Assembly: GCA_946699065.1 (NCBI GenBank)
Contig: CAMPDV010001585.1
Coordinates: 48,090-112,089 of the forward strand
Reading direction: 5' to 3'
DNA: 64,000 nucleotides
From: Loxodes magnus
Taxonomy: Eukaryota > Ciliophora > Karyorelictea > Loxodida > Loxodidae
Below, piece by piece: positions 13,301-58,738 of this stretch (position 1 is the first letter of the stretch; the number at the start of each line of letters is the position of its first letter). A model generated the notes under the pieces. The model made no database searches. It saw nothing but the letters and a program-made list of their open reading frames with translations, and was not told the origin of the DNA. The translations under genes and the position numbers were made by a program.

Positions 13301-13962
13301 ATAATGGTCAGTATTAACTCCTGTTTCTTTATCTACTGTGAATATGTATTTTGTTGATTACTCTAAGTCCTAGTCTAAGAAGATATAGTCAATGATTTAT
13401 TGTCTTTTGTTTTATTTAATTTAATGTGTGGGAATTTATTTTTAATTTGTATCTATGAGTTCATTAGCTTATGTAAAATTAAATAATTAGAGATCTGTAT
13501 CTGTTTAATTATCATAATTATATAGGTGCGCATTAAAGTCTCCAGCAATAATGAAATGTTTATTCTAATTTTATATTATTATTTTTCCTATGTTTAAGTA
13601 GCAATTATTTATGAACTGTTGAGTATAATTACTAGTGGGAAGATAAACATTTATTATTATAATTTCATCCAAAATAAATGCTTAGATCCTATTAAAATTT
13701 TCCTCAAGTAATATTTCTTGAACATCTAGGTCCTTTTTAAAGAAAGAAATTAAACCTGCTTTTAAGTAAGACCTGACAAGAAGAATTATTTAAAAGATTT
13801 ATGCAGGGTTTTTGGTTCTTTTTTAATAAAAGTTTCTTATAATAGAATAATGTTGAGATTATGTTTCTTAATTAATTCAAGTATTATTTCTTTTTTGTCG
13901 AAATATCCTCCACCTATATTAAGCGATCCTATTTTTTAAATTTTTTCTTTTCTTTAAATCAT
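10390..13962 (-). CDS. LINE ORF2: AP endonuclease and reverse transcriptase
   Basis: From the ATG the protein begins MIQRKEKIQKIGSLNIGGGY. Endonuclease motifs: LLQETF, VYLPTSNYTQ, IIAGDFNAH, RQQIIDYIFLDQD and TDHYLLVL. Reverse transcriptase motifs in order: KAAGFDQIPNELI, DWKNYRPIAIINTI, DIEKMFDSINHYL (motif A), LQGSSSGPILAI (motif B) and AWADDLLLIS (motif C, active-site Asp pair). One frame change lies near 13770 within the endonuclease and a second near 11700, after motif C. The C-terminal part beyond 11700 is weakly supported and the stop is approximate. The protein nicks target DNA and copies the element's RNA. Confidence 0.75.
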
Positions 13963-14548
13963 TTTTAAATTTTCTCTGAACATGCTTGGATCATCTAGTT
14001 TATAATTAATTAAGTTAATTAAATTATTCAAAATTTGGAAAAATTTAATAATATTCATTTAGGTAGTTGTATTATATTTTTTCGAATTTAGTAAGATTGT
14101 TTCTTAAGTGAATATATTTTTAGTAATCTTAACTATAATTCATTATTCATTAAAGATTATGTTGTTGATTATATTGTGTTCTTAAATTTTATTGACTAAT
14201 ATATGAATAATTTTATGATTACATACCACCATTTAATTTGCCAGCACAAAGACATAGTGTCATTTTATCATTAATTGTTTAAATACTTAGAAATTTTTTA
14301 TTTTGCTTTATTAACTTCATCAAGAAATGAAATTATGCTTGTTTTTATGGAATTATTTTTTCTAACTTATAATCGATATATGTTTCTATATATCGCTTTT
14401 TCTTTTTTGTATCTTCCACATAGGCTTTTAATTAATCATTTATATGTATCTTTAACCATTATTATTAGTAATTTATTTAAGGCATGTTTAAGCTTATTCT
14501 TTAAAATTTCTTAATTTTTTTTTTCAATTTTTTAGTATTTTTCAATTA

Positions 14549-16859
14549 TCAATTTTTATTATGCTTTTTTTCTTATTGATTATTTTCAGTTTTTTCGTCA
14601 AATTTTTAAGTTTAATTATTGACTTTAAGAGATTTAATGTTTCCAATTTTAATTTTTTTGTAGGTTTAGATCTATTTTTATTTTATTTTATTTTTTTATT
14701 TATCGTATTTCTCTATTTCTATATCATTTTGCTATTTAATATTTAATTTTTGTTAAAGTAATTAAGATATATTTTCTAATTACCATATTTTGGTTTGTTA
14801 TTGTTCGTTCAAGAGATAACAGAATAAAGTGTTAATTTTTTGTTTTTGTTATTTGGTATTCTTAAAATCAAATTTTATTTTTTGTTTTTACTAGTGGTTT
14901 TACCTTAGGTTAATGTTGATATTTTCTAAATAGTTTATCTTCTATTTTTATTATTCTATAAATATTTCTTTTCTTTTAATTTAATGATCTTTTTCTGCAT
15001 TTGCTCTTATAGCAAATTAAGTTTCTTCCTCATTCTGATTCATCTTAATTTAATAGTTTTTATATAAGTCTAACTTTTAGATTTTTAAAGCTTGGTTTTC
15101 TTATTGTATTGCTATTAGTTTATTTTCAACATTTTTTATTACTAAATTTTTGTCATTTAATTCCTATTTTATTTAACTTTTTTATTATTTTATTTTTACT
15201 ATTTTGTTCAAATACTGTTCTATTTCTATTTCATAATTAAGATTTAAATTTTCAATCTCTTATTCTAATTGTTCATTTAGTCCATTTTAATTATCTAGAT
15301 CCTCAATTAGATATTCATTATTTAGTTTAAAGTTATCTTGGATTTATAATAGTTGCTAAATTTTTTCTTCCATAGCTAATTTTTGTTTTGTTTTGTTTTA
15401 TTTCTATATATTCTAAGTTGTCAATTTGGAATTAATTTTCCACTAATTAATTTTTTAACTATATTAATTTGATTAGAAATTTATTCATTTAATTTCTCTT
15501 GATAACGATATTAATCTTATTTATTGCATAACTAATATAATTATTCTTATAATAATAATTAAAGTTTAGAATAGCTCAGATTTATTCTTGGTGATTTGCT
15601 ACTCCTAGATCGAATTTTTGTTCTTGGCTATTTGCTTATTTTGTTTCTAAGTCCCAGCTATAAATACTCCTTGCTTTATTTCTTTCTATATTCTATGGTT
15701 CTTAAGAGTTATTATTCAAAATAATAAACTATTAATCCTCTTTTTACCCAAAATTTTTAGTCTTTTCCTATTATCTACTTAGATTTATGGTATTTTAACT
15801 TTCTACATAAAAAGATTCTTAGTTGAGCTGCAGTTCCAGGTTCTTAAGATTAAGTTAAGATTGAAAATCTTACTATGCTTAATTGCGTTCTAAAATGTCG
15901 TCAATTTAAATATTATTTTAGTTATAAGAGGCATATATCTACTTATTTATTTCAGTTTGTTGAACTTAATTGCTTTAGTTTTTAGTTTCATTTTCTATAT
16001 TAATCTTTAGTTATTATTCCAAGCCTTAAATTTTTATATTTATATCCAAAATCTAGGTTTTGTTTTTACCTTTCCTTTATTTTTTTAATGTTTAAATTTT
16101 TTATCCTATAATTTTGCTACAGTATTTAAAATGATGACCTTCTTCATTACAGAATAAACGGCATATTTATTTTTTATGTCTTAATTTTAGTTTTATATCT
16201 AAGTATTGTATGATGTTTGGAAGTTTATTTATTTATTCTTATGCCAGTTTAACAAGTAATGTAAAAGTTCTAATTTTTGTTATATCTTATTCTTGCTGAT
16301 TTTCATTATCTAGTTGTATTTCAACTATTTAGATATTTAGAATTTAATCAAAAATCATAAGAATATCCTGGAGGCTAATTGGTTAAGTTGGTAAAATGGT
16401 AATCTTATATTTATCTAAGTTAAGGTTTTTCAAATAGACTTTTTCTTAGATTTAAAAGAGGAGTTTAAGTCCAGATTGGCTATCTAATATTTCTATATTC
16501 TTATGATAATTAATAAATTTTTTAAGGTCTTTTTCATTTAAGAAATAAATAATAATATTTTTCTTAAAGTTCAATCTCATTCCACATATAAGTTCTCCTT
16601 TGTTATTTTTCTTCGGAAAGTAATTTTTGCTAATTTAGTCAAATATATTCTTGTAGATCTAATACATTTATGACTGCTATAAATCAAAAGTTTCAAAGTA
16701 TTATTAAGTTAAAACAATGAGTTGATTTAGGTTATTTTAGTTTTATAGTTATATTAGCTGTTATAAGGAGTGAACCTTATCCAAACCCTTAACCACAATC
16801 TCTTGCTGTCCTGAGACTAACTTGAGCGCGGTAATAGGATTTAAATTTTTAAGTTTCAT
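14549..16859 (-). CDS. LINE ORF1: nucleic-acid-binding coiled-coil protein
   Basis: Starts MKLKNLNPITALKLVSGQQE and stays open for about 490 codons. A CCHC-like zinc knuckle, CRLFCNEEGHHFKYC, lies near residue 233. A long Gln/Asn/Glu/Lys-rich region with heptad-like stretches follows, including NEQLEQEIENLNLNYEIEIE. The frame changes once near 15385, inside a CAAAA-rich low-complexity tract, and then continues as coiled coil to a TGA. ORF1 proteins of this layout coat the LINE RNA and help in its mobilisation. An RNA-binding fold ahead of the knuckle is likely, but I cannot confirm it by eye. Confidence 0.7.
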
Positions 16860-17750: not shown

Positions 17751-18590
17751 TATTTAATTAAAATATTGGCTACTACATTTTCAACTATTTATTTATTTAT
17801 TTATTCACAGATATAAGAATAAAAAACTTTAAAAGTGCCTAAGATATTTTTGTTATTATTTAAATTTAGTACTAATTAAGATTATATTTAATGTAGGCCA
17901 TTAATTTTCACTACTTGCTATAATAGGTTTTTATGTATTTAATTACTCTTCATTTTATTTTATTTCTTCCTTCGTCTGTGTCTTTTAGCACGTTGAAAAA
18001 TAAAAAAGTGTAATTACTAAAAGCTTAAATTTTTGTTAAGCTGAAAATATTTTTATAGTGGTTATTAAAATAAGGAAAGCATTACAATTAAGTTAAAAGA
18101 GTTTTAATTATAGAAGGTTTTTATATATTTGCTAAAGGACTCTATAAGTTTAGCTAAAGTTTAATTACTAAGAGATTGTTAATAATCTGAAAAAGCAACA
18201 CTAGAAATAAATTAAACAAGTTTGAGAGAATAATGGTATTTCAGATAAAACTACCCTTCTCATCATCTTCTTCATTAGTCTCCTTTATAATGCTTGCTAT
18301 ATTTTCGATGTTTTCTATTAATTTCTAGCTATCTAAGATTTCTTGAAATTTAATTCTTTCAAGTAATTATAGCTCTCCTTCTCCCTTTCCCTTCCCATCA
18401 TTCTAACTTCGCTTTTTATATTAATTATTCTCTTCAAACTGAGTTTCCGAGGATACGCTTTTTACCTCTCTATTTGCCGATTTAGTCTTAAAAGACTTTT
18501 AACTTTGAAATATATCTTTCGATTCCTTTTTAAGACTCTCCCCTAGATTAGAATTATTCATTTATTACTTTATTGTTGCAAAAGCTAGCA
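17696..18590. repeat. dispersed duplication, copy A (internally deleted)
   Basis: Bases 17696-17749 match 44520-44573, and bases 17749-18590 match 46940-47772 at roughly 80-95 percent by eye. Relative to copy B, about 2.37 kb carrying the UBA-PARP coding part is absent at the 17749/17750 junction. The block includes the small conserved gene on the minus strand. Homology ends just past GCAAAAGCTAG near 18590. Confidence 0.85.
18241..18561 (-). CDS. small charged protein, conserved in both duplicated copies
   Basis: A 106-residue frame from ATG to TGA, starting MNNSNLGESLKKESKDIFQ and ending NEEDDEKGSFI. It is rich in Lys, Glu, Ser and Gln. The C-terminal half (LLERIKFQEILDSQKLIENI) looks helical. 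I do not recognise the family. Support comes from the diverged second copy at 47.4 kb: its frame is kept, a small length change is in whole codons, and the TGA stop is in the same place. It lies tail to tail with the broken PARP half. Confidence 0.6.
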
Positions 18591-22484: not shown

Positions 22485-24908
22485 ATGCACCTTTCTAAGG
22501 TTACCTAATGTTTTATTATTGCTATTTGTCTATCTGTTGGCCTTTATCTCTTCCTTATTACCTCTTAGTACCTTACTCAGATTATTTAAAATTAAAAGGA
22601 AGTTTAAGACTAATTATAAGATTAAGAGATAGAAAAAATCAAATAAATAGCATCTTGGTAGTAGTAAAGTGACTAAGAAGGAATTAATTTAAATCAATCA
22701 GAACTGGTTTTTATGTAAAATACAAGCTAAGAAGAAAAAAACTAGAATAGCACTAGAGAAAATTAAAAGGAAGGTAATTAAAATCTAATTAAATAAGCTT
22801 CTTAGCATTTAACTGATTCCTAAAAAGCAAAGCAACAGTAATCTGATTCAAATTCCTACCTGAATATATAGTAAGAGCTAAAATAGGCTGAGAAATCCTT
22901 AACTTAGGAATCTTAATAATATACTTAAGATACAAAAGATCAAAACTAAAATGGATTTAAATAGGGATAAAATAGCATTTTGGAAGTAAGAAACTAAACT
23001 GAAATTTAGAGTAAGGAATATATTCTAACTTAATAAGTTCAGCAACTAGATACCTAGGATAAAATAAGTCAGTAAATGGCTTAAGAAGATGTATTTTAAA
23101 TAAGCTTAAAGAAAGATTAATAATTTATTATTCATGGACCTTTCCGCTCTTTCGACTTTCCAGAACTATTTATTTCGATATGAGTTAAATTTAATTTTAG
23201 TAACCTGGAACTCTAAAATTTAATGGGCCCTTAAAATAATAAAAGTGAGGGAGAATTCCCTAAATAAGAGAAAAAATAGCGATTTGCTATTCTAGGAAAT
23301 AAAATGGAAGGATGTGATACTATTAGCTATAATTGAGGATATTTCCTATACCTTGTCCATACTTCTAATCAGAAATGAACTATTACTCTTGAAACTGGAT
23401 CTGATAGAGGGTGCTAGTATTATGATACTTATACTGAAATAAAATCAGATGAATGATATAATATTTAGTTAGTTTTAACGGCTTTAGGAACTTCTTTATT
23501 CGAAAAAGCAAAAAGTGCTTAGAAATCAAAAGCTTAAATAAAAGTAAATGACAAATTGATTTAGATAGATGATTAGGATTATTATAGACTAATGCAAACA
23601 GCTATAAGATTTAGAATAGGAGCTTAAGTAGTAAAAAAATATCATCCAGAAGTAGGAAATAACGAAATAGCAGGAAACCTTAATTCTTTAGAATTTAAAG
23701 CCTTTTATTTAACTCCTCAGTATAAACTCTTAAGTTAAAACTTAAATTTAGAATCAATTTAATTTAGTTCTATTGTGGAATTTCAGAAAAATACGTTTGC
23801 TAAGGGTAAATATTATCAATTTTTACCAGGTAGATAAAACTAGAAATTTTATCTTTAAGATGTATATAAAATAGGGAAATATCATTATGGATAGATTGTC
23901 AATTCTGACTTCTTATAAATGGTTTGAGATGGAAGAACTTGTGTATCTTATACTTTTAGTTAATGATATCCTGAAATATATGAACAAGCAAAGAAAGAAT
24001 ACGATGCTTTTATAGAACGCTTTTAGTTTAATACAGAAACACTCTATCCAATAGTAATGCCTGCTTATAAAAAGCATAGCATTTTAAAAGACACTTTATC
24101 ACATATAGAAAGAGCAGAAGGAGTTAACTAAACTATTATCATTATTTCTTAAGATGGTAACTCTTCATAAGTAATAGATGTTATAAGTGAATTTAAAAAT
24201 AGAGGGATATTAAATATTATACATATAATGCATCCTAAAACTGAAACACCAGAACATTTTTTAAGAATTAATTAAAATGGGGAATTTCAATGTGCGTAAA
24301 ATGCTTTTTTCCTACTCAATCTAACTTTTGAGTATTTAAAAGCTAAATCAGTTTTATGATGTGAAGATGATGTTTACTAGTCAACTGATTTTTTTGAATA
24401 TAGTAAGTGAATAAACCTCAAATTCATTCATAACGATAAATATGGGAAAAGAATAGCAGTAGTACCTATTACCAATTATCCTAGAAATGTTTCTGATTAA
24501 TAGTCTTTATATCAAGTGTGATTTGATATTCCTGAATGACACTGAAATTTCATTCTTCCCAATTATATTTGGAAGGAACTTAAAGATGTATTCGTGGGTT
24601 GTGATTGAATACTGAGAGCTTTTTGACATTTTAATTATAATTTGAGAAAAACTTTTGTGAGTCCTGCAATACCAAGAGGAAAGCATGTTACTTGAAGTCA
24701 TAATGATAGTATACATTTCGGGATTTTTACATCTAAGGAAGTGAATACATTTGAGCAATTGACTTAAAACTTAAAACTAATTGACTCCCCAGTAAATTAC
24801 AAAGAAATGGAACCTTAAATAATACTTAAGCACAACAGTACAATTCTGAAAACAACTTGGACCTTTTCTTGGGATTTTCTAATGAAAGTTTATAAAGGAA
24901 AGTTTTGA
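22485..24908 (+). CDS. GNT-I-family glycosyltransferase, copy 2
   Basis: A single unbroken frame of 807 residues. The start is chosen because it precedes the membrane anchor MHLSKVTQCFIIAICLSVGL and matches copy 1. Stem: Gln/Asn-rich to about residue 215, including ISLKKDQQFIIHGP, shared with copies 1 and 4. The LamG-like domain begins HGPFRSFDFPELFISIWVKF and includes GYFLYLVHTSNQKWTITLE. The catalytic domain has VMPAYKKHSILKDTL, TIIIISQDGNSSQVIDV, LWCEDDVYQSTDFFEYSKW (EDD at 627-629) and IPRGKHVTWSHNDSI. It ends SWDFLMKVYKGKF then TGA. Internal TAA/TAG as Gln and TGA as Trp fall at positions shared with the paralogues. Likely a Golgi GlcNAc-transferase; acceptor unknown. Confidence 0.87.
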
Positions 24909-26014: not shown

Positions 26015-28078
26015 TCAAATAATGTTTTTTGAAATGTTTATTAGAAAATCCCATGAGAACTCGTAAATATAAACATCATTAACATCCTAATATTGAGGAG
26101 CTACAATATCAGGCACTCTATTATCATATTTCACTATAAAATCTACTAATTTTACTCCTGAACCCAACCTTTCGTAGTGCAAGCCTTATTCTGTTAAAGG
26201 AATTGGATGGATGTTATAAGAACCTCTTCAGCTTATATGTTTACCTCTAGGAATTTCTGGGATAACAAAAGTTTTTCTCAAGTTTTTGCTGAAATATTAA
26301 ATCATTCTAATAGGTCAGTCGCAGTATATAAAGATAGATTTAAGTTCAAGTCACATATAGTTAGGCAAGAGAAAGTTTCAAGTCCAATCAATTTTGCTGA
26401 AAGTTACTTTAAATAAACTCTCGTAATTACTAAAATTTTTAGCTTCGCTTGTTATCATAGCAGAGCAAACTCTCTTTCCATACTTATAATTATGGATAAA
26501 ATTCTTATTTACTCACTTGCTATATTAATAGAAGTCCATAGATAAGGACACATCTTCTTCAAAATAATTTACTGATTTTAGCCTTAAATAATCTAATGTA
26601 AGATTGAATAGGAAAAAGGCGTTTGAAGCACATTTAAACATTTTAATTTTTAGTTCATCTTGTATATAAGCAGGGATCTAAGGAGTTGGGTGCATTATGT
26701 GGATGATGTTAAGTATTCCTCTACTTTGAAATGATTAGATCACTTCAGTTACATTCGAAGAATTTCCGTCTTAGGAAATAATGATAATAGTTTCATTAAC
26801 TCCATCTGCTTTTTCAAGCGAAGTTAAGGTTTCTTATAAAATGTTATATCTTTTAAAAACTGGCATAATAATTGGAATCATCTCCTCTGTATCAAGTTTT
26901 CGTCTTTTAATGAATTTTTAATATTATTTACGAACTGATTCATAAATATCAGGATAATACTCCTGAGAGTTTAAAAGATCACAATCTTAATCTCCATAAT
27001 TTAACTGAGAAGTAAAATTAAGATCCGTAAACTGCCCATAATGGAGATTATTAATCTATCATACGTTTGAAACTTATGAAAGTCTAAATTTCCTTCTTTT
27101 AACATTTAAATCATTATAGTATTCATTTCTTATTACAACGCTATCCAAGAAAGCTATTATGCTACTTTTCAAAGCTATTTCTTCGAAGTTCTATGCTTTG
27201 CTTAAATCTTTATATTCGTTTTTAATGTAAAAATTATAAAATTCGAAGTTGCTGAAGCTTTCAGTTAGCTCTTTGCACTATTATTTTACATCTAATTTCG
27301 TTAAAACTTAAGCACCTATTCTGAAACGCAAACCTGTCTACATAAGCCGATAATAGTTCTAATCAATGATTGAAGTTATTCAGTCATTTACTTTGAGTTA
27401 CGCCTTAGGCATTATAAAATGAGCTTCTTTATCGAAATAAGAAGTTCCATATGCTGTCAAAAGTATTTAGATGTTATACCATTACTAGGATTTTATTTCA
27501 ACTCTGTCCATATTGATATATTAGCATCCTTTATCAGAACCTGTTTCTAGAAGTATTTTCCACTGGATTTCATGCTTTGGATTGTTAACTAAGTATAAAA
27601 AGTATCCTCAATAGTCATGCAATAAATTGCATCCTTTAACTTTATTCCCTAATATAGGATACTATCTCTCCCTTAGTCTATCAGCTCCTTAACTCTAGGC
27701 ATTTGTAAAGTTATTTTTACTCCTATCATAAAAATCTAAATTAAACTTTATTCAAATAGACAAATGTAACTCAGGAAAGTCAAAGGAATTTAAAGGGCCA
27801 TGAATTACAAACTACTAATGGGATTATAAAGTGATTAAGAAATGTTGGCTAGATAGATTACTAGGTAGAAACTATTATTACTCTACTACTTCTTTAAGCT
27901 AATCACTCTCTTAATCATCTTATTAAAAGCCTGGCTTTAGAAATATTCTTTAATTCAAAACTTTTATACCAACTTCTTTAAAACGCAAATTTGCAAGCTC
28001 CAAAAATAGGAAAAGGAAAAGAAACAAAGCTAGGTAAAGTACTAAGTAAAAGAAAGCTTTATTATTAGGATTTTTCAT
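26015..28078 (-). CDS. GNT-I-family glycosyltransferase, copy 3 (divergent)
   Basis: A 687-residue frame from ATG to TGA. It starts MKNPNNKAFFYLVLYLALF, a type II anchor or signal, with a much shorter stem than its relatives. The LamG-like domain begins near residue 93 (HGPLNSFDFPELHLSIWIKF). In the catalytic domain the acidic motif reads YFEEDVSLSMDFYQYSKW, so EED (residues 507-509) replaces the EDD of the other copies. The last Asp, which contacts the metal in GNT-I, is kept. The C-terminal part (IPRGKHISWRGSYNI, then EFSWDFLINISKNII) is the most divergent of the family. The start, domain boundaries and stop are all in one frame, so the gene looks intact. Confidence 0.83.
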
Positions 28079-30299: not shown

Positions 30300-33200
30300 T
30301 TATTTTAGTTCGAAGACTTTAGTCCAAGACTTGTTTTCAATATCATAGACTAATAATTTACTTTTCTCAGTAAAGATAAATACTTGATTTTTCACTAGCA
30401 ATGGGATATTATAACTCTCCTCTTTCGCATAATCTTTATCATATACTACACAATCTTTCATATCGAATGAGTAAATTTTACCTCTAAAGTCATTACCATT
30501 TTAAAATACGAGAATAGAACTTAGATTAAATGGAATTGAAAGAGTACTCTGGAAATAGCCTAAATCCCTTTAATGTTGATCTCATTTGTCTAATTGCTTA
30601 TTATAAGCGTAAATTCCATTTCCAAAACTATAAAGGAAATCTTTGAAAGAAGCAATACTATGATTGTTAATAGATATAGGAAAGTTTTACAAATCAAAGA
30701 ATTTTAAATACTTTAATGAGAAAAACTAGCACTTTCCTTTATTCTTCTTTCCAGCTATTAGATAAATTCCTTTTCCTTTTTCTAAAAATATACCATGAGA
30801 ATGCCATTCAAACAAGTTAACTCAGGAAGATTTTAGAATTTATCGAGTCATTAATGCGCTTTCACTTGGCTTAAAGTTTATTCTCACATATAAATCTGAA
30901 GTAAACTGCAATTCAGAACTTGAATACTAAGTTCCTTTACTTATTTATCCTGTACTCATCACATGATAACCTGTGTCTCCATTATGAATTAAATCATCCT
31001 GATTATTTGTTTCATAAGCAGAAGCTATTGTTAGAACTTCAAGTATGGTTGGTTCTGGTCCTCTGAATACCATTTCTTTATCAGGATAAATGGTAATATT
31101 TATGCTTGAAATTTCTTCAGGAATAGAGGAAGTTGAAGTAACATTAAACTAAATAGATGAAGCATAAGATTTATCTTCCTTGAGATTGAATAAGATGTAA
31201 GAAGGTCCATTTATTTCGCACTTCTTGCATGTTTTTTTTACATAGCAGTTTCCATTTACCATTTAGCATTTAAATTAATTTCCTTCCATATCGTCACTGA
31301 ATGCTATTCCACTTCACTCGAAACTAATGTCTTTATGACATTCTGAGTATTCTTGTATTTTCTCAGTTTAGCATTATCCACTATAAGATTCGAATTTTAC
31401 TATAAATTATAGATTTGACTTAATAGTAGGGTAAGTTTCTTTTAAAGTAAGATAGGGAATGAGAACTTTACTTTCTACGATATTATCAACAGTAAAACTT
31501 ATTAAGTTATTTAATACAAATGCAATGGCTAGTACACCAAAGAAAGATGAAAAGAGTCCACCTATGGAAGTTTTCTTTAACTTCATAAACTACCCAAGAA
31601 CATAGTTATGACTTTTATCATACATATCAAGAACTTTTATTTTTTTTCGAGATTCTTTCTTAGTTAAAAGCAAAACACTTATAAAGCCTATTATTAGGAT
31701 TAGTCCTATTATTATATAGTAGTTATAATTCTTAACTTCATCAGCATTATCTTAATAAGTTTAAGGTTATTTTGATTATTGTACTTTTTACTTCTAGCTT
31801 TTGATTGGAAGAGTAGATCCAACAGGACACTCTAAATAATTCGGGCATGCAATACAAAATTCAGCTCCTTCTTTGTCATTATAGAATCCCTTTGCACAAG
31901 GCTAACATTACCTTTCAGAAGAAGCTCCTAGATATGGTTACTCCATTCCTTTAGGACATTTGCTACATTTATTACTTTATTTTGTATAAGTACCACGAGG
32001 ACAAAGCTAGCATTCTCCGATTTCATCTTCATAAGTTCCATGACTACAAGGTAATCCACATAAAGTTAAGTTAGGATTACATCGTCGTGGAATATCGTAA
32101 ATTCAAAATTAGTTTATGGATTCCTTGGTTATACTATAACCTCCTTGGACAAAAACTCCGCCAAAGAACATTAACTTTCTCTTATAATAAATCATGGCAT
32201 GACCCCAAACTAAAGGAGGCCATTTTTCTTATGTATTGGTGATTTAAATAAATTATTTTTATTTTAAATCTATTAGAATCAGATTTTCTTAAGGATATAA
32301 TCCTCGAAATAATCCTCCATAAAGGGCCATAAAATTATTAACTGAACCAAATGCAATTATTCCTGGAATATCTAAAGTTTCCCATTCTTCTTGAAATTGG
32401 AATGTTTAAAGATTGTAAGAATAAATATATTGATTATCAGAATCCTATAAATCTATACCTTGTGAAATGTATAAAATGCTCTCGTATTCGTAAAGGTTGC
32501 AGCGTAAGAGCTTGATAGGATAATCTTTATCTTTATTGAGAAGTAGTCATGTATTGGATCCTAAGTCTAATTATCATAGTTGGTTGGTTTCTCCTGAAAT
32601 GGTTTATCCTCCAAACATGTAGAAATGCTATTCAACCATGGTATCACAGGCAAATTTTCTTGGAGTTGGAGGGTTTTTTTGTGAGACTTATTCTCACGTT
32701 TTACTGATTGTATTGAACTTATACATATCATTTAAAATTGCTGACGGGCTTTAACCCCCCATATTATCAAGAAATTTCCATTCTGAACAGCAATATGCCC
32801 GAATCTTTCCTGTGGCAAGGATCCAAACACTTTAACTTACTATCACTTCCAATTTTCTAAGTCTAGCTTTCAAATACTGTTAAGAAGCTATTACTCTGAG
32901 TTTATGCCCCCAAACACATATGCATTTCCTGAGATTACATTCATAGTGTGATAATGTATAGGTTCGGGAAAATCGATATTATTCTAGATTATTTCTCACT
33001 CCAATTTTGGTTTTTACAAATCTATAAAAACCACATCGTTCTTTATACCTGTTTTTGATATGCCTCCTATCATCCAAATTTTATTATCGCTGCATTCTGT
33101 GTAAAATTAATCTCTTATGAAATATTCTCAATTTTCTACTTCTAGTAACTTTCAAATATCATTGAAAATTACATTTTTATCCCCTTTTCCCATACAAATT

Positions 33201-33345
33201 AAAACAAAGTTTTGTTTCTAGCTTTATGCTCCATAAAATAAGTAGCGTCTCGTCGGAGGAGTAGAAGTTTCTGGGAATTATCTTCATTCAGCTTAAGAAA
33301 GTGAAAGGAAGAGTCAAACAACAAAAATAGAGATTTTTGATTGCT
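30300..33345 (-). CDS. large kelch / cysteine-rich membrane protein
   Basis: About 1,010 residues. Order: a hydrophobic signal-like start (FVVWLFLSLSQAEW), a kelch propeller (YLFYGAQSQKQNFVLICMGK, KIWMIGGISKTGIKNDVVF, AYVFGGINSE, MALYGGLF, LMFFGGVFVQGG), GCC2/GCC3-type Cys repeats (CQLCPRGTYTKQSNKCSKC, CQPCAKGFYNDKEGAEFC), a membrane helix (YYIIIGLILIIGFISVLLL), a second hydrophobic segment (SFFGVLAIAFVLNNLI), then a long outer domain ending SWTKVFELK. The frame is broken once, at a run of six G's near 32755-32760, where a seventh would keep the kelch GG in frame. No ATG is found in frame at the signal sequence, so the start is unresolved. TAA follows ELK and the next in-frame TGA is about 100 codons away. 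Likely a surface or endomembrane protein. Confidence 0.75.
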
Positions 33346-35673
33346 TAAGAAAATAAATAATGAAATTAAAGGTAAGGATAGCTTCTTAAAGCTAAAGTTG
33401 GAATTCTAATTAAAAGAAAGCATCATTTAAAATAAACTAAATAACTATAAATGAGAACTATCTAAGCATTATAATTAATAAGAAAATACTTAATGTTCTT
33501 ACAATGTATTTATACACTCTAGTGATTTTCTAAAGCTTATTTAAAATAATTAAAGCAAATTATGAAAAAATAGGGTAAGTTTGATTTAATAAATTGAATA
33601 GAGTTTACTAAGTATGTAAGAAATTTGAATAAGAGATTATCTATGAATATGGTTTTATCTTAATGCTTTGAATATTCTTATAAATCAGGCCAATAAAGAT
33701 AGCTATAAAACATTTAATTAGATTAGATCTAATTAACTATCAAAGTGTTGAGTTATTTAATTAATGTCTAAGATTCATAAATCTTAAGAGTTTCTTTTAG
33801 TTTTGAAAGAGTTAATTAAAATTCCTTTAATATACCTAAGAAATATTTAGATAGCTAATATTTTACTTGGAAAGTTTTAAAATAAGCAAGCTTTTTTATA
33901 AAGTTAAAGAATGGTAAATGGAAATAGAAATTGATTGATTACTAAATATACTTGAGTTATAGATATGGAAGATTAAAATTATAAGCTATTTAAGTAATTT
34001 TTCTAATAATTAACTCTTAACTAACATTTAGAGAAAAGCTAAAATTGGATGGACTTCTTAGATTAATGTTTCTAAAATTTGAGAATAAACCAAAGCAGTT
34101 AGCTATATTAATGCTTCATAATTTATTTTTAAATTAAAATTAGCTAAATAGACTTAAATGCTTAATTTAAGTTTTACCTAACACTCTATTATTAAGCAGT
34201 TCTATTTCCTATTATTTTTATTATAATCTAAGTTAGAAGCTTAATTTGTCAAGTTTGCTAATTACATAAATAAAAGATTGCTTATATATGCTATAGGTAT
34301 GTTGATAATAATTAAAGTTCGTATATTAGCTAAAATACCTATAACTATAAAACTTAAACTGGATACTGCTTAAAGTGAATAGAGTTATTTTATTAATAGT
34401 TAAAATTAATATTTTAGACCTTTTTCTTTCTACATTTATTAAACAAGCAAAATATGAAAAAAGTAGAGTTTGCTTCAAATGTTTTGAATTAAAATTTAAT
34501 TTATCCTTTAAAGATTTATTTAAGCATGTGTTTCATAATAAAAGATTAAGAGTTTATTATATTAAAGCAATTGTTTCTACATTAGCAAATATTTTAGTTT
34601 GATAGCTGATCATAAATCCTTATTTATTTGCCATATAAAATACAGCTATAAAAATAACTTGCAACTTTATGCTTATAAAGTATTTACTAGATCAAAGATA
34701 TAATACACTGATACTCGTTATTAATAGAGACTTTAACAAAATATTTATGAAGAGTATGCTAAAATATATAGGTATTTGATAATCTAAAACAATAAAAACT
34801 GAATAAATCATAATAGAATTTACACTTTAAAGGACTAAATTAAACAAAGAAGATATATAAATCTATATAAACAAATAAAGTAAATAAGTAAAATAGTTAT
34901 TAATAAGCAGCAACTAAATAAAAATAACTAGAAGTATAATATTAATTATATATTTATCTATTAGAAGCTATATTTAAAATAAACTAAATAATACCTTATA
35001 TATTATAATATAAATATTTTAAAATTAATTATAATCTATTCATATTTATTAATCAAACTATCAAATACTTTAACAATATTCATAACTTTTCAACTTTAAA
35101 TACTAAACCAAAATAAATTAACCAAGAAAATTCAACTTATATACATTTATTTTACTAAAAAAGCTGGATAATTCAAATTAAATATTAATAACTATTTAAT
35201 ATTCTCTATAAATTTAAAGATTATCATAACTTAAAGTCATTTCAAAGCTTTATAATTGTTTTAGTTAACTTTTAAATATCCCCATTTTTTAAATAGATCT
35301 ATTTTTCATTCTTAAGATTATATCTAATCTTTAATAGTCTAATTAATAGAAAGATAAAGTTGTTAGTTAATTAAAGCAAAGAGTTTAATTAATGAAATTA
35401 TAAATAAATAAGTTTTAATTTTTAAAAAAGATATTAGATTTATAAGTGTTTCATAAGTAAACTTTACTATTTTATCTTAATTATTATTATTTTTTAGAAT
35501 TATTTATTTAATTAGCTTAACTTTATTGTTTAAACGTATATTTTATTATTAAATTAGATTAGATTAAAAACTAATTTTTAGTAATTGTTCATATGATTTA
35601 ATTAATACTTTTCATCTTAAAAAGGTAGAGTCATAAGATATTTTTTATTATTGCTAAAATATAAAATTAAAAA
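33346..35673. other. A+T-rich intergenic stretch
   Basis: Probably contains the 5' end and promoter of the large kelch gene near its left border. Nothing else is recognised. Confidence 0.45.
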
Positions 35674-40280: not shown

Positions 40281-40310
40281 TAATTATCATCTTATCATAA
40301 ATGGAGAATC

Positions 40311-40435: not shown

Positions 40436-40446
40436 GAAGACTCTAT

Positions 40447-44020: not shown

Positions 44021-44456
44021 TCAGAACTCTTCAATTTTTTCTTCCTAGTACCCAGTTTTTTCTGCCTCTATTACCATTTTTATGATTGGTTTTTCTGGTT
44101 TTGTGAAATATTTCAGATAGCATTAAGGTATCTTTCTTTTAAGTCATGAATTGATTCTATTTCTTTTGTTACATTTAATCTCTCTAATAATTCTTGCTTG
44201 TCTTTTTTTAATTTTTTCCTCTTCCTGAGATCCAGCATCACTTTAATCAGGTAATCATAGCTTATTTACTGCTTGGTAGTGAAATCAAGATTTTCTGAGC
44301 GCATTATATTTTTAGCCTATTTATTAGGTTTTTCTCCAAAGATGGGAGTACCTTATTTGTGAAAAGTTTTCGGTGCCCCTTTCCTGGTCCTAGTAGCTTT
44401 AGGATGTCGTTAACCCTTGAGGAACGGAAAACATTAATCTGAATCCTTACATTTTT
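44021..44456 (-). CDS. small basic protein, unidentified
   Basis: A T-rich block whose minus strand reads as a Lys/Arg-rich protein of about 140 residues, with GAPKTFHKQGTPIFGEKPNK, SYDYLIKVMLDLRKRKKL and EIESIHDLKERYLNAI, then KYFTKPEKPIIKMVIEAEKT and a TGA. A one-base frame change between the last two pieces (near 44120) sits in a short A run. The start is not clear: an upstream ATG lies behind an eight-A run in a different frame. Family not recognised. A competing frame is also open in the first third, so the N-terminus is uncertain. Confidence 0.4.
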
Positions 44457-44519
44457 TTTATGGAATAATTAATAAAAATTTAAATATAACTATAAATTAT
44501 GACAAAAAGATAAAAGAGA

Positions 44520-44573
44520 TAAGAAAGAGAAACAAAAAAGAGCAAAAGAACAAATTAAATGCAAAATTTGCTC
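44520..44573. repeat. 54-base segment shared with 17696-17749
   Basis: Nearly identical to the end of the truncated PARP front half at 17.7 kb and encodes the same KKEKQKRAKEQ...KCKIC peptide. It marks the left limit of homology of copy B. Confidence 0.85.
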
Positions 44574-45863
44574 TAATGGTCTAGAAAATGAATAAGAATC
44601 AAAGCAATATTATTGCTATAAGTGCAATTTATACTTTTGTACTTAATGTGGCTAATAAAAGGAATCTAATAAAAAATTCTTAAGAGAAACGTTCTTAAAA
44701 GAGTAAACAGACTTAGCTAAAATAAATAAATTTAGCATAGGAAGTTGCTTTTAATGTAAAAACTAAGATTGTGTCATTTTGGTTAACAACTAGTAAATAT
44801 TCCTTAACTAAAATAAAGCTAACACATCAACTGATTTTAGAGATCTCTAAATTGATGACTTGTACAATATCCTTGAATTTTAGACTGAACTTTTGGAGTC
44901 TTTAGTTTAGAATGGATTTGGAGTGCTGTAAAGTTGCTAAGCGATGGTATGAACTTAATATGATATTTAGAAAACATAAGAGCTATTATAATATTAAGGT
45001 GGTTATTAAGACTTAATCAAAAAGGAGAAATTCCTTCAACTGCTGACTAAATATAAGTAGAATAAGGAAATTGATTTATAGTAGTATTTCATAGAACAAA
45101 TAACTGATTAAATGACTTAGTTTTAAGATTAGCTTCAAATACCTTAAGAGTTTGTAGATAGATATTTATCTCAGTATCAAAGCCTTAGCAAAATAAAGTT
45201 CTAGTAATGTCTCTTATGTGACGCATACTAGTGTCCATACTGCTACTAGAGTCATAGTGCTATATTTTAGTGTGATAGAATGTAGAATGTTAATGGATAC
45301 TAAATACCTGGATTTAAAGAGATAAAAGTATAAAAAATTTCGATATAGTAAAGTTATAAGAAGACAGTGCTGATTATTAGGAAATAGTGAGAATTATACG
45401 TAAAACATCCTCTGTTAAAATTACGAGTATTCAAAGAATTCTTAACTATGATCAGTATATTAGATTTAGAGCTAATGTTGATATAATGAGCTAGAAATCA
45501 GGAAAACCAGTAGAAAGAAAGTTACTTTTCCACGGAACGAGATAAAACAATCCTAATCTAATAATGAAAGATGAGGTAGGATTTAAGATAGAGTTCGCAA
45601 AAGATGGTTTGTATGGAAGAGGAATTTATTTTCATAAGAGCTTTTAATTTTGTCAAGGATATACACATTTTTCTAAAGATTATGCGTGTTAAATACTACT
45701 AGTGGATGTTATAACAGGAGAGTAATAATTACCATAAGGCCATATGTTAACCAGTAAAAGGAAGATTTTAGGAGGTAAAGATAGCAATACAGATGGAAAT
45801 GGAATGCATATAGTATATGAAAATAATAGATGTCTTCCTCTTTTCATAATATCTTATACCTGA
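44521..45863 (+). CDS. zinc-finger/UBA/PARP protein, 5'-truncated
   Basis: Order: a Cys-rich zinc module (KCKICSNG, YYCYKCNLYFCTQCG, CFQCKNQDC), a UBA-like domain (LLESLVQNGFGVLQSCQAM, QYDIQKTQELLQYQGG), a second Cys cluster (CLLCDAYQCPYCYQSHS), then a PARP catalytic domain: IVRIIRKTSSVKITSIQRIL, LLFHGTRQN (catalytic His), GLYGRGIYFHKSF (catalytic Tyr) and CLPLFIISY before TGA. Leu replaces the Glu of poly-ADP-ribosylating enzymes, as in H-Y-L mono-ADP-ribosyltransferases such as PARP14. One frame change lies at a six-A run near 45335, where a seventh A would restore it; a 26-nt or 20-nt GT..AG intron is an alternative. No ATG lies in frame at the start, and the N-terminal part is found only at 17.1-17.7 kb. 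UBA suggests ubiquitin binding. Confidence 0.75.
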
Positions 45864-46939: not shown

Positions 46940-47772
46940 CATATTTAATTAAAATATTGGCTACTTCAACCTTTTATTTATTCACTAATATAAGAATAAA
47001 ATCACTTTAAAAATACCTAAAAATATTTATTGGTTATTATTTAAACTAATACCAATTAAGCTTATATTTAACATAGGCCATTAACCTTCACTAGTTGCTA
47101 TAATAGATCTAAATGTAGTTAATGACTCTTCATTTTATTTCTTCCTTTATTTTCCCTTTTTGCATATGGAAATTAAAAGGACTTTAGTTACTAAAAGCTT
47201 AAATTATTGTTAATCTGAAAATATTTTTATAGTGGCTATTAAAATAGGGAAAGCATTACAATTAAATTAAAAGAGTTTTTATTAATATATAGAAGATTTG
47301 TATATATTTGCAAAAGGTATCTATAAATTTAGCTAGAGATATCTAAAAGTTTAATTACTAAGAGATTGTTAATAATCTGAAAAGGCAACACTAAAAATAA
47401 ATTAAACAAGAATCGAGAGAATAATGGTAATTCAAATAAAATTACCTTTCTCATCATCTTCTTCATTAGTCTCCTTTATAATGCTTGTTATATTTTCGAT
47501 GTTTTCTATTAATTTCTAGCTATCTAAGATTTCTTGAATTTTAATTCTTTCAAGTAATTATAGCTCTCCCTATCCCTTCCCATCATTCTAACTTCACTTT
47601 TTATATTAATTATTCTCTTCAAACTGAGTTTCCGAGGATACGCTTTTTACCTCTCTATTTGCCGATTTAGTCTTAAAAGACTTTTAACTTTGAAATATAT
47701 GTTTCGATTTCTTTTTAAGACTCTCTCCTAAATTAGAATTATTAATTTATTATTTTATTATTGTAAAAGCTA
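46940..47772. repeat. dispersed duplication, copy B flank
   Basis: Matches 17749-18590, more weakly in the first 350 bases and strongly over the small gene. Homology ends after GTAAAAGCTAG near 47772. Confidence 0.85.
47432..47746 (-). pseudogene. second copy of the small charged protein gene, start lost
   Basis: Same frame and same TGA stop as the gene at 18.2-18.6 kb, with two codons fewer in the Gly/Lys-rich segment. The start position reads ATT where copy A has ATG, and no other in-frame ATG lies just upstream. The reading frame is otherwise preserved, so either loss of the start is recent or a different start is used. Confidence 0.6.
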
Positions 47773-48410
47773 GCTAATAAATTTAGAATTATATATAAAT
47801 ATAGATTATAAAGAGTATTTTAATATAATAACTTAAGAATCTTCCTTCTATATTTGAATAGCTTTAAGAATTATATTTTCTTACATTAATTCATAAAAAT
47901 AGATTTGATAAATCATTTTATTTTCTAATTCAAGTATAAATCAATTTAAGTCTTTTTAATTTAGCTTAAGTGATACTTTTAACTATCTAAATTAAATTAA
48001 ATAAATCCTAAATTTTGTTATATTTTCCCTTTATTTTTATGGATTGCTACAACTTGCTGTTTATGTATGATAAAGAAAAAATTTGATAGATAGCATTAAC
48101 AAAGCAGTGTTGGGAATATTGCTAGTTGCAAGATTTTAGTAATAAAAGTTCTAAATAATTAGGAAACAATTAATCTAAAGCAAACAATAAAACAGATAAA
48201 TATAGGATATATTAGAGCTAATTTATTATATAACAGACATTTAAGATAAAAGTAAACTTTAATTATATCATTTAGACAAAGCTATTGTTACTAAATGTAT
48301 TATGCTATTACACTAAACTAATATGAGATAAGAGAATTAAATAAATAAACTTTAACTTTAATTTAATAGAAATAGTTAAATAATTATCAGTATCTATCAG
48401 TTAAGTTATA

Positions 48411-49667
48411 ATGAGACGTTCATCGAGCTTTAAAGGGGAAGAAATAGAAGAAATTAAATAATAAATAAGCGAAGGAATGAATATCTCACAGTCTCACTAA
48501 TAAAATGTAAATCAGTAAAATGAGGAAATAAAAGAAGATTAAAAGTAAAAAGAAGCAAATCAGACTTAAATAGAACAAGCAGGGTAAATAAATCACTAAG
48601 AAGTTTAAATAATTTAAGATGATGGAAATTTTAGTGCAGAATACTTAAAAAGCTAAATAAAGGATAGTGATATTAAGTAATATGAAAATGGGGATATTTA
48701 TAGAGGTAATATTGTCTAAGGCAAAAAACATGGATTCGGAATTTATGAATACAGCAGTGGAACAAGATTTGAAGGATAATGAGTAGAAGATAATAAATAA
48801 GGTAAAGGGTTCCTTTATTATTCTAATGGTGATGTTTTTGAAGGAATATTTGTCGAAAATATAAAATAAGGATATGGAATTTACAAGCACTAAAATGGAG
48901 ATAAATTTGAAGGATAATGATTTGAAGATGAAAGGCATGGAAAAGGAGTATATTATTATAGTAATGGAGAAGTTTACGATGGAGAATGGTTCTAAAATTA
49001 AAAGTAGGGTCAGGGAAAGTTCAAGTGAGTTAACGGTGATAAATACGAAGGATAATGATAAGCAGATAAAAAATAAGGAAAAGGAGTTATATGATACTAA
49101 AGTGGAGATATATATGAAGGTAACTTTGTTGAGAGCAAAAAACAAGGATATGGAATAATAAAATGAATAAGCGGTTCAAGATATGAAGGATATTGGGAAC
49201 AAGATAAATAACAAGGAAAAGGAACTCTTTACTATTATAATGGAGATACTTATGAAGGAGATTTTGTTTAAGGTAAAAAAGAAGGATATGGAGTATACAA
49301 GTATAGTAGTGGAGACAAATATGAAGGAAAATGAGAATAAGACAAAAAATAAGGAAAAGGAATTTTATATTATTAAAGTGGAGATATTTATGATGGAGAC
49401 TTCGATTAAAATATAAAACAAGGATATGGAATATTGAAGCATAGCAATGGAGATAAATATGAAGGTTAATGAATACAAGATTAGAGATAAGGGTAAGGAA
49501 CTTACTGATATAAAAATGGTGATATATATGAAGGATAGTGATTTGAAAACATTAAAAATGGCTAAGGAATATTAAAGAAAAAAGATGGAACTGAATAGCA
49601 AGGAGTATGGATCAAGAACGAATTTCAAAACCCTGTTTACGACAAAGTAAGCTCGTAGGCTAGTTGA
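48411..49667 (+). CDS. MORN-repeat protein
   Basis: A 418-residue frame from ATG to TGA. Residues 1-90 are charged and Gln-rich. From about residue 91 there are 13 MORN repeats and a degenerate fourteenth, for example GDKYEGQWQADKKQGKGV, GDIYEGNFVESKKQGYG and GDTYEGDFVQGKKEGYG. Odd and even repeats differ, giving a period of about 46 residues. The consensus Gln-Trp of the repeats is repeatedly written TAA TGA, direct proof of the altered code. MORN proteins bind membranes or organise cortical and axonemal structures in ciliates. No catalytic domain is attached. A next in-frame TGA lies about 25 codons on, so a longer C-terminus is possible but lacks repeat character. Confidence 0.9.
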
Positions 49668-50552: not shown

Positions 50553-50783
50553 ATGTAGATATTTATTAAATTACTAACTGGTGCCACAATCACACTGGAT
50601 GTATCACCTTCAGATACTATTGAGAATGTAAAAGAAAAAATTCAAGATGAAGAAGGAGTTCCTATTGAAGAATAGAGATTAATTTTTGCTGGAAAGTAGT
50701 TAGAAGATCTACGTACTTTGAGTGATTACAATATTTAGAAAGAATCAACTATACATATAGTGAAAAGATTAAGTGGCTGCTGA
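50553..50783 (+). CDS. ubiquitin variant ending Gly-Cys
   Basis: Exactly 76 residues, as in ubiquitin, starting [20 protein letters not shown] and ending [16 protein letters not shown] before TGA. Kept: Lys6, 27, 29, 48 and 63, the Leu8/Ile44/Val70 patch, and RLIFAGKQLED. Changed: Lys11 to Ala, Lys33 to Glu, Leu71 to Lys, Arg74 to Ser and Gly76 to Cys. Without the terminal Gly-Gly it should not be activated by E1 in the normal way, unless the TGA is read as Trp and a longer tail is processed. It could be a non-conjugated ubiquitin-like protein, one that uses the terminal Cys, or a decayed monomer. Single exon, with no tandem ubiquitin unit or ribosomal-protein fusion. Confidence 0.85.
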
Positions 50784-51697
50784 TTATTTACTTTTATTTA
50801 GCTTATATTTTACTCTTTTATATTCAATAAATTAGTCCCTTTTTTCTTTACTATGTTTACTCAAAGATAAAGCTTAATACATTAGAGTTTTAAAACCTTA
50901 AAATAGAAAATATTTATAAATTTCTAGTTACATTTATATAAAAGCTAGTGTCTTTAACTATTTATATATCATATAAATCTTAGTTACTCTACAAATTTTA
51001 AAGTGAAGATAGTTTTGTTTTATATAAGTTATAAACTAAAATAATAGTTTTATCTATTAAGATTAAATTAGAGATATTCCTTTCTAAATACTCAATGCTT
51101 ATAATTTCTTAATAATAGCAAATTGTATATATTATCTTATATATCTTTATTTTAATATCGCTTATTTATAGAATTTAATATCATTAATGACTTATTAATT
51201 AAGAACTATAGCTAATTTTTCTTTTTTAGATAATTAAATTATTATTTATTTATTCATTTAAGATCTTTCTCTTTGCAAGCTTTTAAATTAAAAGCATATA
51301 AGATTTTAATATATTATATTTTATATAAATATGAAGATTAAGTTTATAGCTAATACATTAGTTTTAGTTTAGATTCCAATAAAGAATTAATAAAATCTTA
51401 TTGATATCATAATTCTATCTAGACTTAATGAATTATCAAATATTAGTTATTTCAAAATATATATTTGAATGATATTCTATCTAAGGAGATTAATAAATAA
51501 GCAGATTTAAGTTTTAAATAATATCTTTTCTCAGCATCCTGTACATCTTAATACTGCATGAATAGTAGATTCCTTCATTATATTGTAAACTGATAGAGTT
51601 TTATCATTATCTAGCTATTTTCCAGCAAAAATTAACCTTTGCTACTCAACGCAAACCCCTTCCACTTCTTAATATTTTAGCTTAAATAATTGAAAAG
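50784..51697. other. A+T-rich intergenic stretch
   Basis: No recognised feature. Promoter elements for the following RNA gene should lie near its right end, but I cannot name them. Confidence 0.45.
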
Positions 51698-56250: not shown

Positions 56251-58738
56251 TTAAATAGTATTTTTATAAACTTTTATTAGATAATCCCATGAAAAGGTAT
56301 AAGATGTTTTCTAAGTGGTACTGTTGTGTGGAAGAATTATCTGAGGCTGAACATCTTTGTAGTTTACTGGATAGTTTATTAAGTTTAAGTTTTTTGTTGT
56401 TTGCTCTAGTTTTTGCATTCTCACGGAAGTAAAAATTTTAGAATGAATACTTTCATTGTGACTTCATATAATATGCTTTCCCCTAGGAATTATTGGACTT
56501 ACAAAAGTTTTCCTCAAATTCTAGTTAAAATGCCAAAATGCTCTTAGAGGTCAATCACATCCGTTGAATATACTTTTTAGTTCCTTTCAAATGTAATTTG
56601 GAAGTATAAAATTTCAATGCCACATAGGTTTATCGAATCACACTTGATATAAAGATTAAATTTTAGTCAAATTTTTAGCATAACTTGTTATTGATGCAGC
56701 AGCTATTCTCTTTCCATATCTATTATTATGGATAAACTCTCTATTTATTCACTTGTAAAACTCAAAAAAATCTACTGACTAATAAACATCATCTTCACAT
56801 CATAACACTGACTTAGCTTTTAAATGTTCAAAAGTAAGATTTAATAAGAAAAAAGCATTTGAGGCACATTGAAATTCTCCATTTTTATTCTATCTTTTAA
56901 ACTCCTAAGGAGTTTCTGTTTTAGGATGCATTACATGAATAATATTTAAAATTGCTCTATTCTTGAAATCATTTATAACGTCTACAACTTATGAAGAATT
57001 ACCATCTTAAGAAATAATTATAATAGTCTAATTTATTCCATCTGCTCTTTCTATATGTGATAAAGTTTCATTTAAAATGCTATGTTTCTTATAAGCAGGC
57101 ATTACTATAGGATAGATTTCTTCTCTATTCAATTTTAATTATTATATTAATGCTTCATATTCAAGTTTAATTTATTCATAAATATCAGAATATCATTAAT
57201 TCAAACTATAAGTAGGACATACTCTTCCATCTCAAGCCATCTAAAGAAAATTAGTCTTTAAAATCTATCCAATATGATATTTTGCCCATTTTATATGCAT
57301 TTTAAAGATAAAAAATTCTACCCTTCTTTGCTTGGTAAAAATGAATAATATTTTCCTTTTAAGGTCATTTTTTTGCGAAATTCTAGTATAGAGTTGAAAG
57401 AAACAGTTTCTGAATTCAAATCTAAGAGTTTATATTAAGTAGAAAAATAAAAGCCCTTAAAATCTAAAGGATTAAGGTTTCCTACTACCTCATTATTTCC
57501 TACTTCTGGATGATATTTCTTTACTACCTAAGCTCCTATTCTAAATCTTATTCCTGTTTACATTAGTCTATAATAATCTTGATCATCTATTTGAATAAGC
57601 TCTTTATTTATTTTTATTTGCACTTTTGGCTTCTAGCTCTTTCTCATATTATCAAAGAAAGGACTTCCCAAAGCTGTTAGCACTAACTAGATATTATACC
57701 ATTCATCTGATTTTATTCCAACTTAAGTATCATAATAATTACATCCTCTATCAGATCCAGTTTCAAGAGCAATAGTTCATTTTTTATTAGAAGTATGCAC
57801 AAGATATAAGAAATAGCCTCAAGTATAGCTAAAGGTATCACAACCTTCCATTTTATTTCCTAGAATGGCAAAGTGTTGGTACTTTTCTTATCCAACAAGA
57901 ATTTCCTTATTGATATTGCTTTAAGAGACTATTTTATTTTAAAGTTCTAAGTTACTAAAATTAAATTTAACTCATAAAGAAATATATATCTCAGGAAAGT
58001 CAAAGGAGCGAAAAGGTCCATGTATTATAAATTGCTGGTTTTTCTTTAAGCTTATTTAAAACTTATTTTAATTAGCTACTTTCTATCTTTATTTTGCAAA
58101 GGGTTAAGTTATTAAATTTTCTAAGTTAATGCTTAGTTTTAATTAGTACTTTCTTATTTAGCAATTTTCTACTTTCAGCTTCCAGTTTTATTCAACTTTT
58201 TTACCTGATAAGTATTATTTTTTCATTTATGCTTTACTATTTTATTTTATTTTTGATCCTCTTAGTTGATGGTTTTGCTTTAAGAAATTTCAGTTATATT
58301 TTTAATTTATTCAAGACTATCATTTTTCCACTGATTGACTAATATTTTGTTATCCTCCTTTTCTTTATTTTCCTCTTCCTTTCTCTAAACTGCTTCTGAT
58401 CCTTATATTATATTTATCTTTTATCCTACGTTATCGTTTTTCCACTTGTTTGCATATATTATACTTTCCTTCTTTTCTTTATAGTCCTTAACTTTTATCT
58501 AGGTTGTTTCTGATTTATTTACTTATTTTACATCCTTTTCAATTACTTTAAGTTCTTGAGATATATTCAAAGGCAGCTATATCTACTCAATCTTCAAAGG
58601 ACTCGCTTTTTTCCTCTTTTTCTCCTAATCAAAAAAAGTTTATTTTAATCTGCTACTAAAAGGTGATGAAATAGAAGTAAACTACTACAGTAAGACAGCA
58701 AAGAGCAAGAAAGTAAGTGAAGGCTTTTAGTTCTTCAT
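56251..58738 (-). pseudogene. GNT-I-family glycosyltransferase, copy 4, frame-broken
   Basis: Starts MKNQKPSLTFLLFAVLLQQF and has a stem with about three degenerate repeats of the type NQWKNDSLEQIKNI, several carrying N-glycosylation sites. The LamG-like and catalytic domains match copies 1 and 2, including ISLKKNQQFIIHGP, SVLWCEDDVYQSVDFFEF and IPRGKHIIWSHNESI. The frame changes near 58080 between stem and LamG domain, and twice near 57285-57325, where a T run and an A run are each one base longer than the paralogues need. The C-terminus SWDYLIKVYKNTI is followed by TAA exactly where copies 1-3 have TGA. It is a recent pseudogene or an intact gene with base-run errors. Confidence 0.72.

Follow-up and report, generated by a model that had tools for sequence, protein, structure and literature searches.

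The window, by which we mean the whole 64-kb stretch of DNA that was analysed, varies in GC content from 17 to 29% (2-kb steps) and carries the features collected in Table 1. A self-trained codon model with a generic AT-rich start marked 26 coding-like segments in it; trained on the MORN-repeat gene and ubiquitin-like gene 1 alone, the model returned only two. The Pfam families named in the window were MORN, ubiquitin, PARP, kelch with ephrin-receptor-like repeats, MGAT2/GNT-I-like, and a LINE-like reverse transcriptase/endonuclease. The sole Rfam match within the 64 kb was a tRNA, and a tRNA search of the same stretch found tRNA-Lys(CTT) alone. Searches for relatives returned none from viral_contigs (queried with the LINE reverse transcriptase and GNT-I) or from genome_contigs (queried with the reverse transcriptase).

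Table 1. Coding features and their coordinates within the window
Feature	Position	Strand	Observations
GNT-I-like copy 1	6042..8507	-	822 codons including terminal TGA; paralogue alignment
Non-LTR (LINE-like) retrotransposon frame, same code	10403..16249	-	Pfam RVT_1 85.8 bits, Exo_endo_phos_2 43.7 bits
Small ORF of duplicated stretch	18241..18561	-	Ends TGA
GNT-I-like copy 2	22485..24908	+	808 codons including terminal TGA; paralogue alignment
GNT-I-like copy 3	26015..28078	-	688 codons including terminal TGA; Pfam MGAT2 27.3 bits (cut-off 27)
Kelch/ephrin-receptor-like gene	30300..33400	-	Pfam kelch and Ephrin_rec_like; upper limit is the limit of the stretch read
PARP-domain coding stretch	45318..45863	+	Pfam PARP 42.7 bits; ends TGA (45861-45863)
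Small ORF, second copy	47432..47746	-	Ends TGA, at the same aligned position as the first copy
MORN-repeat gene	48411..49667	+	418 codons and TGA (49665-49667); sense 36 TAA, 5 TAG, 10 TGA
Ubiquitin-like gene 1	50553..50783	+	Pfam ubiquitin 99.5 bits; TGA directly after residue 76
Ubiquitin-like gene 2, 3' part	51531..51683	-	Pfam ubiquitin 58.0 bits; TGA at ubiquitin C-terminus
GNT-I-like copy 4	56251..58730	-	TAA (56251-56253) aligned to terminal TGA of copies 1-3; upper limit approximate, by eye

Taken together, the MORN gene, the four GNT-I paralogues, the two ubiquitin-like genes, the kelch gene and the PARP stretch contain all three standard stop codons in frame; the PARP stretch itself holds TAA and TAG and zero sense TGA. 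When translated with TAA and TAG as Gln and TGA as Trp, the MORN gene scored 220.9 bits against Pfam MORN (PF02493) over ten stretches. The GNT-I-like paralogues share 43 to 74% local amino-acid identity, and a long conserved region lies ahead of their glycosyltransferase part. For copies 1-3, the start Met was our choice and the end is the aligned TGA. Copy 2 scored weakly with Pfam GNT-I (21.6 bits, under the 25.4 cut-off); it had 0 matches to solved structures by sequence, and its AlphaFold model, from three sequences, was unusable (mean pLDDT 33). Both ubiquitin-like proteins terminate in Gly-Cys; the C-terminal residues of ubiquitin are Gly-Gly.

A duplication of ~830 bp (17790-18618 and 46967-47803) carries a small ORF on the minus strand in each copy. 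As protein the two ORFs are ~90% identical, above the 59-75% of whole-stretch frame matches, which suggests from sequence that the ORF is coding. Elsewhere, 44389-44574 resembles 17550-17750 (E 4e-5), and there are two inverted repeated pairs (33100-33500 with 39050-39480, and 39660-39804 with 40299-40442). Immediately upstream of the PARP domain is a Cys-rich, Gln-rich frame (44501-45320, plus strand) that looks RING/IBR-like by eye and for which a Pfam match was absent. Frame changes, located by eye, were seen at a G run in the kelch gene (about 32745-32760, minus strand), at or near a homopolymer in the RING-like/PARP stretch (45300-45340, plus strand), and twice in GNT-I copy 4, also at or near homopolymers (about 57285-57320, minus strand). 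These are either assembly errors or decay. At the RING-like/PARP frame change we considered a short GT-AG intron, but none of five candidates was convincing. No intron was visible in the GNT-I and MORN genes.

Amino-acid meanings of TAG, TAA and TGA

The original prediction leaned partly on GNT-I copies 1-3 being open for 688-810 codons only if the stops are recoded. This is true as far as it goes (Table 1), but the same holds for any frame. In copies 1-3 and MORN the coding frame has the three stops at about the frequency seen in the other two frames, and a code without stops opens every frame; openness thus carries no weight, and we dropped frame length as evidence. What speaks for the code, at the level of sequence, is conservation between copies and families. 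The proposed alignment of the GNT-I copies and of the MORN repeats was run and the residues opposite each codon tabulated, with the outcome supporting Gln for TAA, Gln for TAG and Trp for TGA. These assignments are observed in the genes of the window as follows.

With the ubiquitin-like genes aligned to solved ubiquitin and the stops masked as X, TAG stood opposite a ubiquitin Gln in 6/6 cases within the aligned stretches (Gln 2, 41, 49 and 62 in gene 1; Gln40 and Gln49 in gene 2). Scoring between GNT-I paralogues also ranked Gln first (Q 58, K 35). The RVT_1 profile was undiscriminating for this codon (E 89.8, Q 89.1, K 89.0).

TAA was found once in the ubiquitin alignment, opposite Gln31 (1/1, gene 2). 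In RVT_1, Gln was the best reading (Q 89.2 bits, E 85.5, S 80.2, K 77.6, Y 70.8, masked 73.9), as it was for copy 4 under the GNT-I model (Q 22.5, K 19.4, E 19.3, S 17.7, masked 17.0); for copy 2 the same model put Gln above Glu (Q 21.6, E 18.9). The MGAT2 model slightly favoured Glu (copy 4: E 20.6, K 20.0, Q 19.8; copy 2: E 19.2, Q 18.4). Adding TAG=Q and TGA=W to copy 4 lowered its GNT-I score from 22.5 to 21.9 and its MGAT2 score from 19.8 to 18.6. When the reverse transcriptase was compared with one R2 protein, 6 of the 22 TAA faced Lys, 4 Glu, 2 Gln and 1 a gap.

In the MORN profile, TAA scored nearly alike as Gln (154.1 bits) and as Glu (152.8 bits), so that this profile does not tell them apart. 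Repeat column 11 has five TAA and one TAG beside 3 CAA, 2 His, 1 Glu and 1 Asn; column 7 has five TAA beside 5 Glu, 2 CAA and 1 Ala. In the paralogue score, TAA ranked as Glu (E 112, K 108, Q 79) unless TAG=Q was allowed, upon which Gln came first (Q 254, E 182). Calibration of this score recovered 42/50 sense codons but miscalled CAA and CAG as Lys, because TAA and TAG are the usual codons at conserved Gln. We therefore set aside the raw BLOSUM ranking, with Glu first. Gln is the best reading of TAA, by a smaller margin over Glu than for TAG, and the Gln assignment rests mainly on ubiquitin, RVT_1 and the paralogues rather than on MORN.

Reading TGA as Trp is free of the Gln/Glu ambiguity that the MORN profile shows for TAA. 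Trp was the best of six readings in that profile and gained 54 bits over masking (W 166.7, F 157.3, Y 144.7, L 142.4, C 115.7, R 115.1, masked 112.6). Column 5 of the repeat has 6 TGA beside 2 TGG, 4 Phe and 1 Ile, and columns 17 and 18 have two TGA each among Tyr, Lys and His. Set against two solved MORN1 chains, TGA has Trp opposite it at 3/8 and 3/7 positions, and mostly other aromatic or aliphatic residues at the rest. That the repeats write Gln-Trp as TAA-TGA, as had been noticed, was borne out: EG-TAA-TGA occurs in 4/13 repeats and EG-TAG-TGA in 1 more. The string Glu-Gly-Gln-Trp is thus present, but it does not represent the consensus of the family: before Trp, the two MORN1 chains tabulated have mostly Glu or Asp.

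Many of the recoded codons were also said to sit at residues conserved between the GNT-I copies. Between these paralogues TGA faces TGG in 15/38 sense pairings, 16 times the chance rate, and faces Tyr 8 times, at about the chance rate; the corresponding paralogue scores were W 151 and Y 68. Three comparisons gave no gain for Trp: copy 2 with the GNT-I model (C 23.2, masked 22.3, W 21.6), copy 2 with the MGAT2 model (masked 19.4, W 18.4, C 17.5), and the reverse transcriptase against one distant R2 protein, where Trp lay opposite TGA in 0/4. Over nine genes there are 63 TGA to 25 TGG, so that TGA accounts for 72% of the codons for Trp and for 1.5% of codons overall. The share of A pooled over the other A/G-ending codons is 79%, near this value.

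Gene ends and the codons before them

We placed the ends of 11 genes. Alignment fixed those of GNT-I copies 1-4, both ubiquitins and PARP; for MORN, kelch and the two small ORFs a nearby stop was chosen without outside homology. As placed, nine of the ends are TGA, two TAA and none TAG, in agreement with the original prediction that genes end on TGA although TGA is also sense. Copies 1-3 end at one aligned position, both ubiquitins at the ubiquitin C-terminus, and PARP directly after the point where its alignment to solved PARP15 runs out; MORN and the two small-ORF copies end on TGA by our choice. In MORN, a TAG three codons 5' of the chosen TGA could be the real stop.

Copy 4 appears to end on TAA, as does the kelch gene, whose end was placed on TAA (30300-30302) from the fall in GC, with 146 nt beyond it lacking TGA in any frame. 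Both genes carry frame changes elsewhere, so that these two ends count for less than the avoidance test below. TAA is probably a minor stop, used sometimes, and TAG seems not to be used as a stop. Coding GC in nine genes is 26-34%, and GC drops after the stop in most of them (MORN 0.40 to 0.13), with copy 3 hardly changed (0.23 to 0.22) and copy 4 without a fall (0.20 to 0.23).

Codons were counted in nine genes, to which the two small ORFs were later added to give the 11-gene set used in the avoidance test. The other segments of the 26 and the LINE, having no placed end, were left out, and copy 4 enters by its 3' part only. The bodies of the nine genes (4,027 codons) contain 198 TAA, 83 TAG, 63 TGA and 18 TGG. 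Their last 20 codons (180 in all) contain 0 TAA (8.9 expected), 0 TGA (2.8 expected), 7 TGG (0.8 expected) and 4 TAG (3.7 expected; 3 seen without the MORN one). Trp is accordingly written 7 times TGG and never TGA near the ends, compared with 63:18 in favour of TGA upstream.

P values come from permutations of synonymous codons, carried out gene by gene. Of the two widths, 20 codons follows the L. magnus paper (PMC11441545) and 30 codons was added here. Over 20 codons of the 11 genes, TGA makes up 0/7 Trp codons (expected 5.0, P = 0.00015) and TAA 0/5 Gln codons (expected 2.3, P = 0.028), with TAG at 4/5. Over 30 codons, TAA makes up 1/17 Gln codons (expected 7.4, P = 0.00015) and TAG 11/17. 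For TGA-ended genes only, P was 0.00095 (TGA) and 0.042 (TAA) at 20 codons and 0.001 (TAA) at 30. When a single GNT-I copy was retained, the values were 0.026, 0.041 and 0.0006 in a set of 7 genes and 0.0097, 0.099 and 0.030 in another set, of 6 TGA-ended genes, in the same order. The gene set is small and, of the 7 TGG near ends, 4 represent one homologous site. Moreover, in some genes the end was chosen as the first TGA after the homology, so TGA avoidance is partly built in there, but not for the GNT-I copies, the ubiquitins or PARP.

Near the ends (last 20-30 codons), then, Trp is TGG and Gln mostly TAG or CAA. Among the 11 genes the closest sense codon to the stop lies at 42 codons for TGA, 30 for TAA and 3 for TAG; in copy 1, copy 4 and ubiquitin 1 the alignment-fixed end is preceded by a TAG at a distance of 15-20 codons. 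At the 5' side, the first 20 codons were counted in five genes; they hold 5 Gln codons (3 TAA and 2 TAG) and no Trp codon, and so serve as a control for TAA only.

The code and its alternatives

We conclude that the window is very probably nuclear DNA of a ciliate using the karyorelict code (NCBI table 27), in which TAA and TAG are Gln, TGA is Trp inside genes, and termination is mostly at TGA. We infer the karyorelict identity of the organism from this match, and codon usage points to stops being read by context. From work on other species, tRNAs would win at TAA, TAG and TGA by default, and the release factor would prevail only towards the 3' end, within reach of the poly(A) tail and its proteins. 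The cost shows in the window as a scarcity of TGA and TAA over the final 20-30 codons. Such avoidance is a prediction of the model of Swart and colleagues, in which translation is the default and termination is imposed by nearness to the transcript end (PMC4967479).

The original prediction had named the karyorelictid and Condylostoma codes together, and it is the karyorelict one that the sequence favours. Under a Condylostoma-type code (table 28), TAA, TAG and TGA would each be both sense and stop. The sense meanings are identical, two ends look like TAA, TAA is avoided near ends, and MORN could end on its TAG. However, TAG is at none of the 11 placed ends (the MORN end being doubtful) and is undepleted before them, including before the fixed ends of ubiquitin 1 and of copies 1 and 4, in contrast to TGA and TAA, which are depleted. 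Sense TGA is also very common here, at 1.5% against the 0.042% given for UGA in C. magnum (PMC4967479), and we regard this code as unlikely. A Tetrahymena-type code (table 6), in which TGA is stop only and genes with internal TGA are pseudogenes, would suit TGA as the usual terminator and the frame changes in copy 4, kelch and RING-like/PARP. It is very hard to reconcile with TGA at the Trp positions of the MORN profile, with its swaps with TGG between paralogues, and with the 63 TGA codons that lie in frame within nine gene bodies. GNT-I copies 1-3, all full-length, have 14, 14 and 9 TGA inside the frame and share an aligned TGA at the end; they differ most at codon position 3 (0.42 to 0.58 vs 0.21 to 0.34 at position 2), as genes under selection do. 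We consider table 6 highly improbable, far more so than table 28.

The same nominal code in another lineage, for example the dinoflagellate parasite Amoebophrya sp. ex K. veneficum, is also improbable, if by a hair less so than table 28. In that organism all three stops are contextually translated with likely the same meanings, according to PMC12005148. The same source gives a mean of 2.6 exons per gene, against the lack of visible introns in GNT-I and MORN, and puts UGA at 9.7% of in-frame stops in stop-containing genes, against 63/344 here. The LINE domains, low-GC flanks and depletion pattern fit Loxodes instead (PMC11441545).

Within the karyorelict reading, we also suggest tentatively, giving it somewhat less than even weight, that TGA is an ordinary Trp codon near mutational equilibrium as well as the main stop, with TAA a second, minor ambiguous stop and TAG fully Gln. 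If so, the code would lie between tables 27 and 28; position alone would separate stop from sense, and TGA need not be rare. How a ribosome chooses where to end a protein is put to the test by codes that lack a dedicated stop. With sense TGA and TAA so frequent in the window, genomic DNA is enough to reveal the position effect, as a switch between synonymous codons near the stop. Gene finders using any standard table would shred such a genome, and metagenome contigs of this kind are probably misannotated or discarded.

Comparison with known codes

The table 27 code is already known, and its listed users (Loxodes magnus and Parduczia sp.) have the same assignments and TGA terminator as the window genes. 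Less ordinary here are TGA at 72% of Trp codons and 1.5% of all, and TAA as a possible minor stop. The two apparent TAA ends differ from the UGA stop of table 27. Seah, Singh and Swart (2022) reportedly noted that in karyorelicts UAA may serve as the stop in a small minority of transcripts. For L. magnus, PMC11441545 reports TAA and TAG as Gln and TGA as Trp or stop, with UGA as the stop; depletion of UGA and UAA, not UAG, over the ~20 codons before it; GC that falls once the stop is passed; and abundant LINEs carrying both of the domains found here. Introns of L. magnus are mostly about 16-25 bp long. Its coding GC is 33.5%, compared with the 26-34% of nine window genes. In a single-cell survey (PMC6935857), UAR is likewise listed as Gln in Loxodes among others, with karyorelicts stopping at UGA, and a Loxodes Trp tRNA with a 4-bp anticodon stem has been reported (PMC13092985, citing others). 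The passages of the literature that were searched gave no figure for sense TGA in Loxodes, and we make no claim that one is unpublished. In Parduczia UGA usage is 0.120%, well below the value here, and in Blepharisma 0.059% (PMC4967479).

The Condylostoma magnum code (table 28) has in common with the window the three sense meanings and context-dependent termination. Its inferred stops are UAA, UAG and UGA, and all three become scarcer near ends (PMC4967479); a TAG stop and TAG scarcity near ends are neither of them seen here (with the MORN end doubtful). In Blastocrithidia, as here, all three stops are sense and UGA is Trp; UAA has a double role, as TAA probably does here. It differs in reading UAR as Glu (PMC12153298), whereas TAG in the window is Gln, in 6/6 cases in ubiquitin, with TAA less sharply split from Glu.
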